Notes under the pieces: generated by a model | Seen by the model: the letters and a program-made list of their open reading frames with translations, nothing else | Database searches by the model: none | What the model was told of the DNA's origin: nothing | Part shown: one piece after another, positions 12,013-50,721 of the stretch | Position numbering within the stretch: position 1 is the first letter of the stretch | Layout: each line of letters opens with the position of its first letter | Source of the DNA: Nitrospiraceae bacterium | GTDB taxonomy: Bacteria > Nitrospirota > Nitrospiria > Nitrospirales > Nitrospiraceae | NCBI GenBank assembly: GCA_013140715.1 | Contig: JABFSG010000022.1 | Span: 1-55,562, forward strand | Reading direction: 5' to 3' | DNA: 55,562 nucleotides | Made by a program: the position numbers and the translations under genes

Positions 12013-12228
12013 GGTTCGTTTGGTTTGTTTAGTTTATTCGGTTTGTCTTGTTTGTTTAGTTGAATCAGACTGACCGCAAAAACTAGGGAAGGTCTGATTA
12101 ATTCAAAGTTCTAGATAGGGACCAATCAGATCCCCAGTGTTTTGCCTGTTGGCTGGCCACAATCGGGAATTAATCAGACCTTCCCTAGATGAACCAATCC
12201 AACCAAACAAACAAAACAAACCAGACAG
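12013..12228. repeat. Period-9 inverted array between htrA and ispD, split by a MITE-like insertion
   Basis: Left arm of nonamers GGTTCGTTT, GGTTTGTTT, AGTTTATTC, GGTTTGTCT, TGTTTGTTT, AGTTGAATC; right arm GAACCAATC, CAACCAAAC, AAACAAAAC, AAACCAGAC. The arms are interrupted by a separate 106-bp palindrome-ended element (12083-12188). The right arm runs into the ispD reading frame. Confidence 0.85.
12083..12188. mobile_element. MITE-like element with 22-bp perfect terminal inverted repeats
   Basis: The first 22 bases (CTAGGGAAGGTCTGATTAATTC minus the limit of quoting: 12083-12104) are the exact reverse complement of 12167-12188. The 62-base interior has no reading frame. It sits inside a period-9 array, and the flanks read through as a normal array if the element plus one CTAG is removed, so CTAG at both ends may be a 4-bp target duplication. 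A YTAR/CTAG target is known for the IS5 group, which suggests a non-autonomous relative; no transposase is in the window, so the family is a guess. Confidence 0.75.
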
Positions 12229-18511: not shown

Positions 18512-18599
18512 TCTATTCGGTTGATTCGGTTTGTTTGGTTTATCTGGTTAGTCTGGTTCAACCAAATAAACCAAACAAACTAGACGAACCAAATAACCA
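18512..18599. repeat. Period-9 inverted array between aroG and tatD
   Basis: Left arm CGGTTGATT CGGTTTGTT TGGTTTATC TGGTTAGTC, centre TGGTTCAAC, right arm CAAATAAAC CAAACAAAC TAGACGAAC CAAATAACC. It fills the entire spacer between two leftward genes. Confidence 0.85.
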
Positions 18600-23343: not shown

Positions 23344-23478
23344 GCTGATGGCTAATGGCGGTTAGCGCAGACCAGAATTATTCCAGGCAACCAGACGAAC
23401 CAGATAGACCAAACAAACGAGATAGACCGGATAGACCATTTTCGAGCTAGACGGTTGACGAATGACGGATGACGCTTT
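23344..23478. repeat. Composite spacer: two period-7 arrays around a period-9 arm
   Basis: Three arrays sit side by side: GCTGATG, GCTAATG, GCGGTTA (23344-23364, period 7); a one-sided period-9 arm CAACCAGACGAACCAGATAG, ACCAAACAAACGAGATAGAC (about 23389-23438); and ACGGTTG, ACGAATG, ACGGATG, ACGCTTT (23451-23478, period 7). No matching inverted arms are obvious for the nonamer part. Confidence 0.7.
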
Positions 23479-32119: not shown

Positions 32120-32184
32120 GGGGCGTGCCAAAAGATATCAGGTAATAAACGGTGAAAGCTAGGCGAGTATTGGAGCAACATCGT

Positions 32185-32311
32185 GCGAGACATGCGGGAC
32201 GAGCGGGACAGGCGAGACGGGGTGATCTGGTTCAACCAAACACACGAGGCAAAGCACTTAGGCCAGGCAGACAAAAACAACCAAACAAACCCAAGAAACA
32301 AGAGGAACAAG
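32185..32311. repeat. Period-9 arrays, GC-rich and AT-rich, between holB and metG
   Basis: Two adjacent nonamer arrays. 32185-32220 is four perfect nine-base units of a GC-rich kind: GCGAGACAT, GCGGGACGA, GCGGGACAG, GCGAGACGG. 32221-32311 is the usual AT-rich kind with a truncated left arm (GGTGATCTGGTTCAACCAAA) and a long right arm (AGACAAAAACAACCAAACAA, ACCCAAGAAACAAGAGGAAC). Confidence 0.8.
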
Positions 32312-32317
32312 TCCGTG

Positions 32318-38291: not shown

Positions 38292-38350
38292 GTCCGGTTT
38301 GTCTCGTTCCTTTGGTTGAACCAGACACACAAAACAAACTAAACAAACCA
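38292..38350. repeat. Period-9 inverted array between glmS and gatC
   Basis: Left arm TCCGGTTTGTCTCGTTCC, centre TTTGGTTGAACCAGA, right arm CACACAAAACAAACTAAACA then AACCAAAGG. The terminal AAAGGAG doubles as the gatC ribosome-binding site. Confidence 0.8.
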
Positions 38351-38363
38351 AAGGAGCCTTCCT

Positions 38364-47083: not shown

Positions 47084-47175
47084 AACCGTGAAACGTCAGG
47101 CGTCAGGCGTGAAACGTAGAACTGTCGAATTCTCTTCATCCGAGGCGGCTCACGCTTCATGCTTTACGTCTCATG
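47084..47175. repeat. Period-7 inverted array between mgtE and recO
   Basis: Left arm ACCGTGA AACGTCA GGCGTCA GGCGTGA AACGTAG, loop ACTGTCGAATTCTCTTCATC, right arm CTCACGC TTCATGC TTTACGT CTCATGA. CGTGAAA-type word; the same word appears at 40511 and 48966. Confidence 0.8.
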
Positions 47176-47957: not shown

Positions 47958-48057
47958 GTTGATCTGGTTTGTTTTGTTCATCTGGTTGATTTGATTCCTC
48001 TGGTTTTTCCGATTAGTCTGATTCAACCAAACAAACTAAATAAACAAGAGAAACCAA
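47958..48057. repeat. Period-9 inverted array between recO and the DUF971 gene
   Basis: Left arm TTGATCTGGTTTGTTTTGTT then CATCTGGTTGATTTGATTCC, centre GATTAGTCTGATTCAACC, right arm AAACAAACTAAATAAACAAG then AGAAACCAAAGG. The trailing AAAGGAA serves as ribosome-binding site for the next gene. Confidence 0.85.
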
Positions 48058-48070
48058 AGGAACTCTTAAG

Positions 48071-48427
48071 ATGACCGAGACTGTGTGTGAACCGCGAGAC
48101 ATGGCCTGGATTGAGAAGGGCGTATTGGGCATCGAATGGAGCGATGGGCATAAGGCTGTCTACCCTGTCCGGTATCTCCGTCAGCAATGTCCCTGCGCAG
48201 CCTGTGTGGATGAGTGGTCCGGCGCGCGGAGGCTGCAACCGAACGATGTGCCGCTCTTAATCATGCTGCAGGACGTGCAGCCGGTCGGGCGGTATGCGCT
48301 GCAATTCTCCTGGAGCGATGGCCACGATACAGGGATTTACTCTTATGCCCTTCTTCGGCGGCTTTGTCAGTGCGATGTCTGTCAGCCTGTAAAGCCTGTA
48401 GAGCCAAGGAGCCGGCGCCTCTTGTGA
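48071..48427 (+). CDS. DUF971 (GBBH-like) domain protein
   Basis: A 118-residue protein with one DUF971 domain: LGIEWSDGHKAVYPVRYLRQQCPCAAC, then LQPVG-type middle (DVQPVGRYALQFSWSDGHDTGIYSY given in outline) and LLRRLCQCDVCQP. Relatives form the N-terminal domain of gamma-butyrobetaine hydroxylase and occur fused to or next to Fe-S cluster carriers. The two Cys-rich elements CPCAAC and CQCDVC are more cysteines than usual and could bind zinc or iron. Its stop overlaps the start of the next gene. Confidence 0.85.
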   Translation: MTETVCEPRDMAWIEKGVLGIEWSDGHKAVYPVRYLRQQCPCAACVDEWSGARRLQPNDVPLLIMLQDVQPVGRYALQFSWSDGHDTGIYSYALLRRLCQCDVCQPVKPVEPRSRRLL

Positions 48428-48948
48428 TGAAACGTTCAGGTATGCTCAGGCCGACCTGGTGCGGCGCGCATCGGTTTCTGAGTCTTGATTTTCTGATGCG
48501 TTCGGGATGGGTCGGAGTGGTTTTTGTCATTGCGATCGGATCGGTTCTCGGTTGCAGTAGGATGCCTCCTTTGGAAGAACAAGAGCGCTATGTGCGAAAC
48601 AACGATCTGGCGCTCAATCGATTGACGCCCCGCGCATTTGTCGGGGCATGGGGAACGCCGACGTACCATCATGCTGAGTTTATGCAGTTTTTCGGGATGA
48701 AAGACGACTCGCTGATTCCACGGTCGAGATTGGCGAGTGGAGAACCCCCGCGTGGATGGGAGATCAGCATGGAAGCCGGCGAAGCGCTGTTTCTGGCTTA
48801 CCCGGATCGTGGCTGGTTGGTAGTATTTTATGAAGAACGGCTGGTCTATCGCGAAGCGCTGACCTCGGCAGAACTCCATGCGTTGGGACGCAGCTGGAAG
48901 CATGAAGAGAAGTTTCGCTCCAGGTTCGAAGTGCCTGCTGCCCAATAA
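48427..48948 (+). CDS. Putative lipoprotein
   Basis: Family not recognised. From the ATG at 48427 it has 173 residues; an ATG at 48496 would give a textbook lipoprotein signal (MRSGWVGVVFVIAIGSVLGC, lipobox VLGC), so the mature N-terminus is probably that Cys. The rest is soluble: LALNRLTPRAFVGAWGTPTY resembles outer-membrane assembly-factor-like (SmpA/OmlA) lipoproteins where a short folded domain starts this way, but the match is weak. Overlaps the DUF971 gene by one base. Confidence 0.7.
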   Translation: MKRSGMLRPTWCGAHRFLSLDFLMRSGWVGVVFVIAIGSVLGCSRMPPLEEQERYVRNNDLALNRLTPRAFVGAWGTPTYHHAEFMQFFGMKDDSLIPRSRLASGEPPRGWEISMEAGEALFLAYPDRGWLVVFYEERLVYREALTSAELHALGRSWKHEEKFRSRFEVPAAQ

Positions 48949-48965
48949 TGTGATGAGTCCATCCC

Positions 48966-49197
48966 CCGTGAAACGTGAAGCGTTCCTCGTGAAGCATATC
49001 TCATTATTTGTACGAGACTTGCGAGGCACATCCTGGTGCGTGAGGCGCGGGGCTAGCGAGATTTTGAGTTCCGAGCTTCCGAAAACCCAGAACCCAGAAC
49101 CCAGAACCCAGAACTTCTGGTTGTGCTTGTCTCGCTCACAATTCACGAACGACGAGTTACGCTTCACGCTTCACGCTTCACGGCTCGCGGCTCCTGG
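48966..49197. repeat. Nested period-7 arrays upstream of glgA
   Basis: Outer array: CGTGAAA CGTGAAG CGTTCCT CGTGAAG on the left (48966-48993) and ACGAGTT ACGCTTC ACGCTTC ACGCTTC ACGGCTC GCGGCTC on the right (about 49150-49191), complementary words. Inner array: four perfect CCCAGAA units (49086-49113) followed by CTTCTGG, facing GAGTTCC GAGCTTC. A GCGAGAC/GTCTCGC nonamer pair (about 49016 and 49128) lies between them. No gene is present in 48949-49218. Confidence 0.8.
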
Positions 49198-49218
49198 GAG
49201 CATCCTATTGGGTTTCCC

Positions 49219-50721
49219 GTGACACAGCAGCCTCTGAATCTGCTCATGGTCGCCTCCGAAGCGGTTCCCTATGCAAAGACGGGCGGCCTTGCCGATGTCA
49301 CGGGCGCGTTGCCTCTTGAGTTGGCGAAGCTTGGACATGATGTCATTCTCCTCCTTCCGCGCTATCGTTGCCTGAACGAGTCAGGCAGATCATTCCATCC
49401 CGTCTGTTGGTTGCGGGTACCGACACCTCAAGGGCCTGTCGATACGCTGGTTGAAGAAGATATTCTTCTGGCCGGCCAAGGCGATGGTCGGCTGAGGGTC
49501 TGGACGATTCAAAACCAGGCTTTGTTCGATCGGCCGGGGCTGTATCAAAATCAGGGGCTTGATTACCCTGATAATCTCGACCGGTTTTCATTTTTCTGTC
49601 GGGCAACGATAGAAGTGATAGCCTATCTTCGAAGCTCGTGCCGGTGGAATACCGATCTTCTCCATCTCCATGATTGGCAAACAGCGCTCTGTGCGGTCTA
49701 TCTCAAGACCATTGCGCAGGATCGGCAGGATGTCGCTGCTCCAGAAGTACGTAGTGTGCTGACATTGCATAATGTGGGGTACCAAGGTCTGTTTCCTGGA
49801 GGGCAGTTCGAACACACCGGTCTACCTCTATCGCTTTTTAATCCTGAAGCCCTCGAGTATTACGCTTCGGTGAATTTGCTCAAGGGGGGAATTATCTACG
49901 CCGACTATGTGACGACGGTGAGTCCTACCTATGCGCGAGAAATCCTTACGCCAGAATTCGGTTTTGGGCTTGAGGGTGTGTTGCGCAATCGTGAGGACCG
50001 ACTCCTGGGTATTCTTAACGGTATCGATATCGATCGATGGAATCCGGAAACCGATTCCTATTTGCCAGCCAACTACTCTGTCAGTGACCGTGCGGGGAAA
50101 ATGGCCTGCAAGCAGTCGCTTCAGCGGGAGTTTCAGTTGCCGGAAACATCGGCTCCGGTTCTTGGCATGATTGCACGGTTGACGTCGCAGAAGGGCTTAG
50201 ACCTTGCGGCAACCATTATTCCTGAACTCATGGCGATGGATGTGCAGTTAGTGCTCTTGGGAACCGGCGAGCCAGACCTCGAAGCCACGTTTAAGGCGCT
50301 TCAGGCTCGTTATTCCCATCGGATAGGCCTTCGAATCGGTTTCGATGAAGGACTCGCACATCGTATTGAAGGCGGAGCCGATGTGTTTGTGATGCCGTCT
50401 CGATATGAGCCCTGTGGTCTTAGCCAGCTATACAGCCTTCGTTATGGCACGGTTCCAGTTGTGAGAAAAACAGGCGGATTGGCAGATACAGTTGTGCCTC
50501 TGATCCCGCAGGCTCGGCATGCGGGGCGGGCGACGGGGTTTTATATTGAAGCAGACAGGGCAGATGCTTTGCTGGCTGCTTTGCGAAATGCTGTGAAAGT
50601 TTATCAGGACCGGCCAATATGGGAGGGGCTGATTGAAGCCGGGATGACGACGGATGTGTCCTGGGCTCGTTCGGCAAACGATTATGACAGGCTATTTGTA
50701 ACGTTAGTCAGGGAAGGATAG
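49219..50721 (+). CDS. glgA: Glycogen synthase (ADP-glucose, GT5)
   Basis: Extends alpha-1,4-glucan from ADP-glucose. 500 residues from the GTG of MTQQPLNLLMVASEAVPYAK, the usual N-terminus; the longer open frame (from 49123) translates repeat DNA. Signature KTGGLADVTGALPLEL (substrate-binding Lys), LLHLHDWQTAL, LTLHNVGYQGLFPG, VTTVSPTYAREI, GILNGID, ARLTSQKGLDL and VMPSRYEPCGLSQLYSLRYGTVPVVRKTGGLADTV (outline) are all in place. It is isolated from other glycogen genes in this window. Confidence 0.94.
   Translation: MTQQPLNLLMVASEAVPYAKTGGLADVTGALPLELAKLGHDVILLLPRYRCLNESGRSFHPVCWLRVPTPQGPVDTLVEEDILLAGQGDGRLRVWTIQNQALFDRPGLYQNQGLDYPDNLDRFSFFCRATIEVIAYLRSSCRWNTDLLHLHDWQTALCAVYLKTIAQDRQDVAAPEVRSVLTLHNVGYQGLFPGGQFEHTGLPLSLFNPEALEYYASVNLLKGGIIYADYVTTVSPTYAREILTPEFGFGLEGVLRNREDRLLGILNGIDIDRWNPETDSYLPANYSVSDRAGKMACKQSLQREFQLPETSAPVLGMIARLTSQKGLDLAATIIPELMAMDVQLVLLGTGEPDLEATFKALQARYSHRIGLRIGFDEGLAHRIEGGADVFVMPSRYEPCGLSQLYSLRYGTVPVVRKTGGLADTVVPLIPQARHAGRATGFYIEADRADALLAALRNAVKVYQDRPIWEGLIEAGMTTDVSWARSANDYDRLFVTLVREG

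Follow-up and report, generated by a model that had tools for sequence, protein, structure and literature searches.

Concentric 7- and 9-mer arrays as separable layers of a dispersed, hairpin-forming Nitrospira repeat

Introduction

Cyanobacterial STRR sequences are intergenic tandem heptamers. Tandem GGGNATC heptamers lie between genes of Xanthomonas and Nostoc, with frequent four-unit runs able to form G-quadruplexes; the available part of that account presents direct arrays and describes no inverted nested partner (PMC4692102). In Geobacter metallireducens, each site holds three to five tandem 7- or 8-mers, in opposite-strand pairs at variable distance, and the sites are dispersed; as far as the consulted part of the source goes, they are read as protein-binding sites, and family nesting, syntenic gain or exchange and 9-mer arms do not appear there (PMC2700814). 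Larger intergenic repeats have other architectures. Streptococcal BOX is a modular element with a predicted stem-loop, in which outer boxA and boxC enclose a variable number of boxB modules (PMC3049150). ERIC, YPAL, RUP and NEMIS are short, hairpin-forming and dispersed, with filled and empty sites (PMC2229807). Inverted repeats can also change in place, as template-switch mutagenesis rewrites one arm as the reverse complement of the other (PMC8794818, PMC7202029).

Here we describe a spacer that shares traits with each of these systems and combines them differently. It lies before glgA in the window, the whole 55,562-nt stretch of DNA analysed here, and is one rearranged copy of a dispersed, non-coding, hairpin-forming Nitrospira repeat that we name NHR1. 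NHR1 resembles BOX in being modular, intergenic and predicted to form a stem-loop, a comparison of architecture only: BOX modules are not described as inverted 7- or 9-mer arrays, and NHR1 can hold unrelated inner families within one outer arm pair (PMC3049150). It shares small size, hairpin formation, dispersal and filled and empty sites with the ERIC-like repeats, but unlike MITEs and palindromic mobile elements it consists of concentric tandem arrays, and no terminal repeats with a fixed target duplication have been seen in it (PMC2229807). The Geobacter class 3 unit, MTYCTGA in the part of the source consulted, resembles TTCTGAG arrays that we find at L002 and L007 (PMC2700814). That class is defined by five tandem MTYCTGA units per site, paired; the window instead carries CCCAGAA (four units, on one side) and CGTGAAG, and TTCTGAG occurs only at L002 and L007. 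On the minus strand of the window, (GGGTTCT)4 is likewise a four-unit G-quadruplex candidate, comparable to the GGGNATC heptamers as the available account presents them (PMC4692102). Template switching acts locally and on its own would not place members of a dispersed family in a loop (PMC8794818, PMC7202029). In the literature we found, with incomplete coverage, layered, exchangeable inverted heptad and nonad arrays are undescribed, as are these repeats in Nitrospira.

Results

The glgA spacer consists of repeat layers set one inside another. It occupies 48949..49218 (270 bp, strandless), as defined by synteny of its two neighbours: a small lipoprotein-like gene (48427..48948, plus strand), for which an NCBIfam search returned no match, and the co-directional glycogen synthase gene glgA (49219..50721, plus strand; TIGR02095, E 8e-164). 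A first-pass annotation had reported period-7 arrays with inverted arms before glgA, and both the gene assignment and the array coordinates hold. All of the layers are given on the plus strand. The outer left arm (48967..48994) matches the 5' end of NHR1 and reads CGTGAAA-CGTGAAG-CGTTCCT-CGTGAAG, with CGTGAAA at 48967 and CGTGAAG at 48974 and 48988. Opposite stands the outer right tip, a perfect (ACGCTTC)3.4 found by TRF at 49159..49182, equivalent to a three-unit CGCTTCA array. Inside the left arm lies a degenerate NHR1 left middle arm (CATATCTCATTATTTGTACGAGACTTGCGAGGC...GCGAGATTTTGAG, 48995..49070), delimited by alignment to the G019 orthologue and the NHR1 consensus; on the right, the middle and outer arm (GTGCTTGTCTCGCTCACAATTCACGAACGACGAG, 49123..49156) is conserved with G019. 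Innermost is (AACCCAG)4.4 (49084..49114; TRF, 100% matches), whose four CCCAGAA units at 49086, 49093, 49100 and 49107 are all perfect. TTCTGG follows at 49115, part of a lone opposing unit, TTCTGGT (49115..49121), found by sequence scan. The annotation's intermediate pair, GCGAGAC/GTCTCGC, survives in one half: GTCTCGC occurs exactly once, at 49129, but exact GCGAGAC is absent from the spacer, which holds only its relatives ACGAGAC (about 49012), GCGAGGC (49021) and GCGAGAT (49056).

Repeat and folding statistics set this spacer apart from shuffled sequence. Its longest lag-7 match run is 24, and none of 300 dinucleotide shuffles exceeded 7. In folding, the whole 241-nt strand beats every one of 200 shuffles (z -2.8 as DNA, -5.2 as RNA). 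The lone perfect inverted pair of 10 bp, CGTGAAGCGT/ACGCTTCACG, is not significant by itself (shuffle maximum 12). In syntenic spacers from seven genomes, 32 kb in total, match runs of at least 8 are in excess at lag 7 (17 observed, 0.0 expected), lag 9 (23, 0.2) and lag 15 (14, 0.2); lags 2-6 and 10-13 show no comparable excess. Perfect tandem runs in the same spacers concentrate at lags 7, 9, 14, 15 and 18, with fewer at 20-21 and few elsewhere. A search for intrinsic terminators or promoters gave nothing above chance, with one weak terminator site against 0.4 expected. The (GGGTTCT)4 run, on the minus strand at 49084-49113, fits the G-quadruplex pattern; the window has five such matches on its minus strand and none on its plus strand.

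NHR1 is a family with a fixed order of layers. A search with a clean copy recovered the layered sequence at many unrelated loci. Its outer layer consists of CGTGAAG-type heptads and its middle layer of GCGAGACNN nonads; these enclose a loop, which often bears a further array of TTCGAAC, AACCAAACA or CTGAAGG units. The consensus is CGTGAAGCGTATCTCGTTATTCGCGCGAGACTCGCGAGACTTGCGAGAAAAGCGGGACGGGTCGGAAGTTTCATCTTCGCGAGTCGCGCCTGTCGCGCACGTCTTGCTTGTCTCGCTCACAATTCACGAACGACG, followed in some copies by further CTTCACG-type heptads. With at most 104 candidates scored per genome, covariance-model scanning gives 30 copies here and 0 to 88 in each of 32 congeners, 30 of which have matches. DNA-query matches in a class-wide sample are confined to one family, and the named exact-pattern matches are Nitrospira MAGs. 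We found no match in viral contigs (exact pattern) or in plasmids and dropped a viral or plasmid origin; no Rfam family scored above its gathering threshold.

NHR1 is a short dispersed repeat able to fold as a hairpin (consensus z -2.0). For at least one outer-only arm pair, that of G011, folding does not surpass that of shuffles (z 0.05). The core shows too little covariation to serve as proof of structure (covariation term -0.06; double changes in 5 of 20 pairs). Hairpin formation in the cell is thus not proved by sequence, and the family can be explained without selection on RNA structure. The outer ends of copies differ by 7-bp units, and no target-site duplication is visible at the glgA or badF sites. 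A RAYT/Y1 transposase was considered as the mover and rejected, as Y1/HUH transposase counts do not track NHR1 counts; PF01797 (Y1 transposase, RAYT) was not detected in G018, G023, G012 and G024, several of them incomplete, which carry 25-67 copies.

Copies vary in steps of whole units and mainly in the loop. The 143 strong full-length matches peak at lengths of 135 (60 copies), 126 (32) and 117 (10), a clustering that indicates loss of whole 9-mers, and in the alignment either arm can have gaps of exactly 9 nt. Array tips vary by heptads: the tips of L029 and L058, its orthologue in G003, are 14 bp apart in length, with one and three CGTGAAG units at the orthologous copies. Long copies make up 30 of the 143. 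For 18 of 20 long copies, most of the added sequence is in the loop, which spans positions 58-84 of the 135-position consensus; this count carries no probability, because these copies were picked for length and many are related. This sequence is mostly the inverted array GGTTCGAGGTCCGAAGTTCGAGGTTTTCGGAACTTCGAACCCAGAACTTCGAACTTCG or a CTGAAGG relative. The TTCGAA module has a single polarity inside NHR1 in all 18 clear cases and is reversed at G013 accD, so both orientations exist in different contexts. The motif GAACCCAGAAC within this module may have been the seed of the CCCAGAA array in the window.

The same glgA site is empty in most relatives and filled to different degrees in others. We found glgA in 19 congeners, mostly draft MAGs like the other genomes compared, and the upstream gene adjoins it wherever the contig is long enough. 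The spacer is empty in 16 of the 19: 23-30 bp, about 24 bp in most, and -4 in one. In G019 it holds 277 bp of related insert with outer and middle layers but no CCCAGAA array, including a regular NHR1 copy (model match G019:C7:12033-12157, E 1.4e-23). The G016 spacer contains a related insert of at least 170 bp with only the outer parts, CGTGAAG and GAACGAGGAGATACG, and looks outer-only. Both (CCCAGAA)4 and the amplified CTTCACG tip are found at glgA only in the window, in neither G016 nor G019. The sister genome G003 yielded no match to glgA, which leaves the split from G016 and G019 as the sole bound on the age of (CCCAGAA)4. A MITE-like family, CTAGGAGCCTGTCCGGCATTG...CAATGCCGGACAGGCTCCTAG, occurs at L011 (the G019 glgA spacer), in the G011 accD spacer (L210) and in a G025 insert at the 32131 spacer. 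At G019 glgA it may enclose the NHR1 copy; the alignment score of its flanks (78.8, shuffle maximum 66.4) is suggestive only. In G005 the glgA spacer (L012) has an insert of 339 bp that differs in kind and carries GGGGGCCGGCCCCC hairpins.

Three further syntenic sites display the layers in other combinations. All four sites lie between co-directional genes, just 5' of a start codon. The badF-like site is empty in 14 genomes, outer-only in 7, outer plus middle in 4, outer plus half middle plus inner in 1 (G031) and degraded in 1; the outer-only alleles of G011, G018 and G002 have one loop sequence in common across clades. The recO spacer is short in 7 genomes, outer-only in 6, three-layered in 4 (G005, G018, G029 and G030) and outer plus inner with no middle in 1 (G004). 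One more has outer arms with another insert, and 3 hold MITE-like hairpins, with arrays in the loops of two. The window's own recO spacer is outer-only, with a second CGTGAAA outer-family hairpin at 47088..47171 (plus strand). At accD, states run from empty and short core to core arms around TTCGAAC arrays (G002, G031, G027), around AACCAAACA 9-mers (G008, G016) and arms around ATCTGAC units (G021), among others. In G027 the outer GCGGGACTCG and its flank are kept and everything between is replaced. Here the interior was replaced jointly with some of the arm sequence, a pattern resembling exchange with another copy. A MITE-like family, AGGATGCTGAAAAAGTCC...GGACTTTTTGAGCATCCTGC, is present in the recO spacers of G019, G010 and G031 (L173, L181, L177) and at L029 and L061, and its interior sometimes contains NHR1 or array hairpins.

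The layers are separable modules: one site is empty, outer-only, outer plus middle or outer plus inner in different genomes. All of them belong to dispersed families common to several loci and genomes, and several unrelated inner-array families occupy the same loop. The first-pass annotation had proposed looking in relatives for outer arms without the inner array. Such arms exist, at glgA itself in G019 and, by its appearance, in G016, and a constant pairing of inner and outer parts at fixed lengths was not seen.

A five-gene tree places three gains or replacements of inner arrays on terminal branches inside clades of simpler hairpins. G031 (core plus inner) groups with outer-only G002 and G015 at badF, G004 (outer plus inner) with outer-only G009 and G017 at recO, and G027 (inner array) with short-core G014, G028 and G026 at accD. 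With state labels assigned by eye, changes on the tree are numerous at all three sites: 15 at accD, 9 at badF and 11 at recO. States at badF and recO fit the tree only slightly better than shuffled labels, which leaves room for loss and horizontal exchange.

Discussion

We propose that NHR1 is built of concentric inverted arrays, that an existing hairpin acquires interiors from dispersed copies and that slippage alters unit number, an account whose chances we judge to be about even. The existing hairpin would be the acceptor, its arms supplying short homology to other dispersed copies; replication stalled at the hairpin, or short-homology recombination, would then copy a new interior in. Slippage would afterwards add or remove whole units, yielding the 7- and 9-bp steps. 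At glgA the outcome would be (CCCAGAA)4 inside a degenerate core, together with amplified CGTGAAG/CTTCACG tips. The annotation had suggested growth by insertion or amplification at the loop of an existing hairpin. Its emphasis on the loop agrees with where most extra sequence of long copies lies, but the arrays do not arise in place, loop by loop, and length also changes in the outer tips and in the arms. Loop insertions, 9-bp arm steps and 7-bp tip steps taken together argue for gain or exchange of interiors between dispersed copies plus slippage, rather than growth at the loop alone. Because the inner arrays are families and not local inventions, the interiors come from elsewhere in the genome.

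Several observations would also suit layers that are themselves mobile, MITE-like hairpin modules preferring the loops or dyad symmetry of existing hairpins, with nesting by repeated insertion. Different families (TTCGAAC, AACCAAACA, ATCTGAC) share the accD loop, NHR1 copies and 7- and 9-mer arrays lie inside MITE-like hairpins, and modules occur in both orientations in different contexts, as the reversed G013 accD case shows; YPAL, whose targets span or adjoin dyad symmetry, is a precedent (PMC2229807). We nevertheless consider this explanation unlikely, though a serious candidate, given that NHR1 and its inner modules show no clean target-site duplication (glgA and badF-like sites), that polarity inside NHR1 is constant, that G027 is a replacement of arm and interior and not an insertion, and that Y1/HUH transposase counts do not track NHR1 counts, none being detected in four genomes with 25-67 copies. 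Constant TTCGAA polarity and the G027 replacement make exchange, through short homology or template switching, more likely than repeated free insertion, and we infer recombination or template switching, as against loop-targeted transposition, as the molecular mechanism. Clean insertion is possible in some cases. Decay of a single ancestral three-layer element, leaving outer-only and short forms as deletion derivatives, is improbable. The fixed layer order, the loss of whole 9-mers from arms and the resemblance of the short loop GTCGGAAGTTTCATCTTCGCGAG to both ends of the long interior fit such decay, and the short loop might be what a deletion left of a longer one. Against it stand the several unrelated inner families inside the same outer arms at accD, the single loop sequence of the outer-only alleles of G011, G018 and G002 across clades, and the terminal-branch inner arrays in clades of simpler hairpins.

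Function at the RNA level could in principle maintain the hairpins, with layers kept or added to control the downstream gene through mRNA stability, attenuation or translation. Strong strand folding as RNA and the position of all four sites between same-direction genes, just before a start codon, accord with this, and ERIC and BIME supply precedents for effects on mRNA (PMC2229807, PMC3049150). NHR1-type elements, lying between co-directional genes, are probably transcribed. Yet there is no Rfam match, covariation is weak, terminators are at chance level and the element is missing from these genes in many congeners, so that selected RNA function appears highly improbable as the explanation of the layers.

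Interior exchange between dispersed NHR1 copies may be one instance of something wider. Nitrospira might possess a genome-wide system in which the interior of an intergenic hairpin accepts other hairpin arrays and spacers become onion-like stacks of exchangeable 7- and 9-mer cassettes, through a putative loop- or arm-directed recombination activity; we hold this broader reading tentatively and lean against it. The natural series of empty, outer, outer-plus-middle and outer-plus-inner states at the same sites opens the birth and enlargement of hairpin repeats in bacteria to genome comparison. In Nitrospira, structured repeats rebuild even the spacers of closely packed co-directional genes, which matters for annotation, for transcript reading and for the use of spacers as markers.

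Other parts of the window hold further arrays. A 9-mer hairpin family (AACCAAACA/AACCAGATA and complement) occurs at 47958-48060, 18528-18593, 38319-38352, 12013-12061 and 23390-23439, standing alone in the window and nested in other hairpins in G008, G016 and G031. At 32132-32317 the window carries a 186-bp insert where five congeners have 25-27 bp. GCTAGGC flanks it on both sides and it contains half a GCGAGAC array and a AACCAAACA array; in G025 this position is taken by a MITE-like insert of a different sort. Further heptad hairpins, for example AAGTCGTCAAGTCTTCAAGTC...GACTTGACGACTT, are found in G008 (L104-L106) at a spacer that contains a 9-mer hairpin in the window, showing that different species can have different unit families at a single site.
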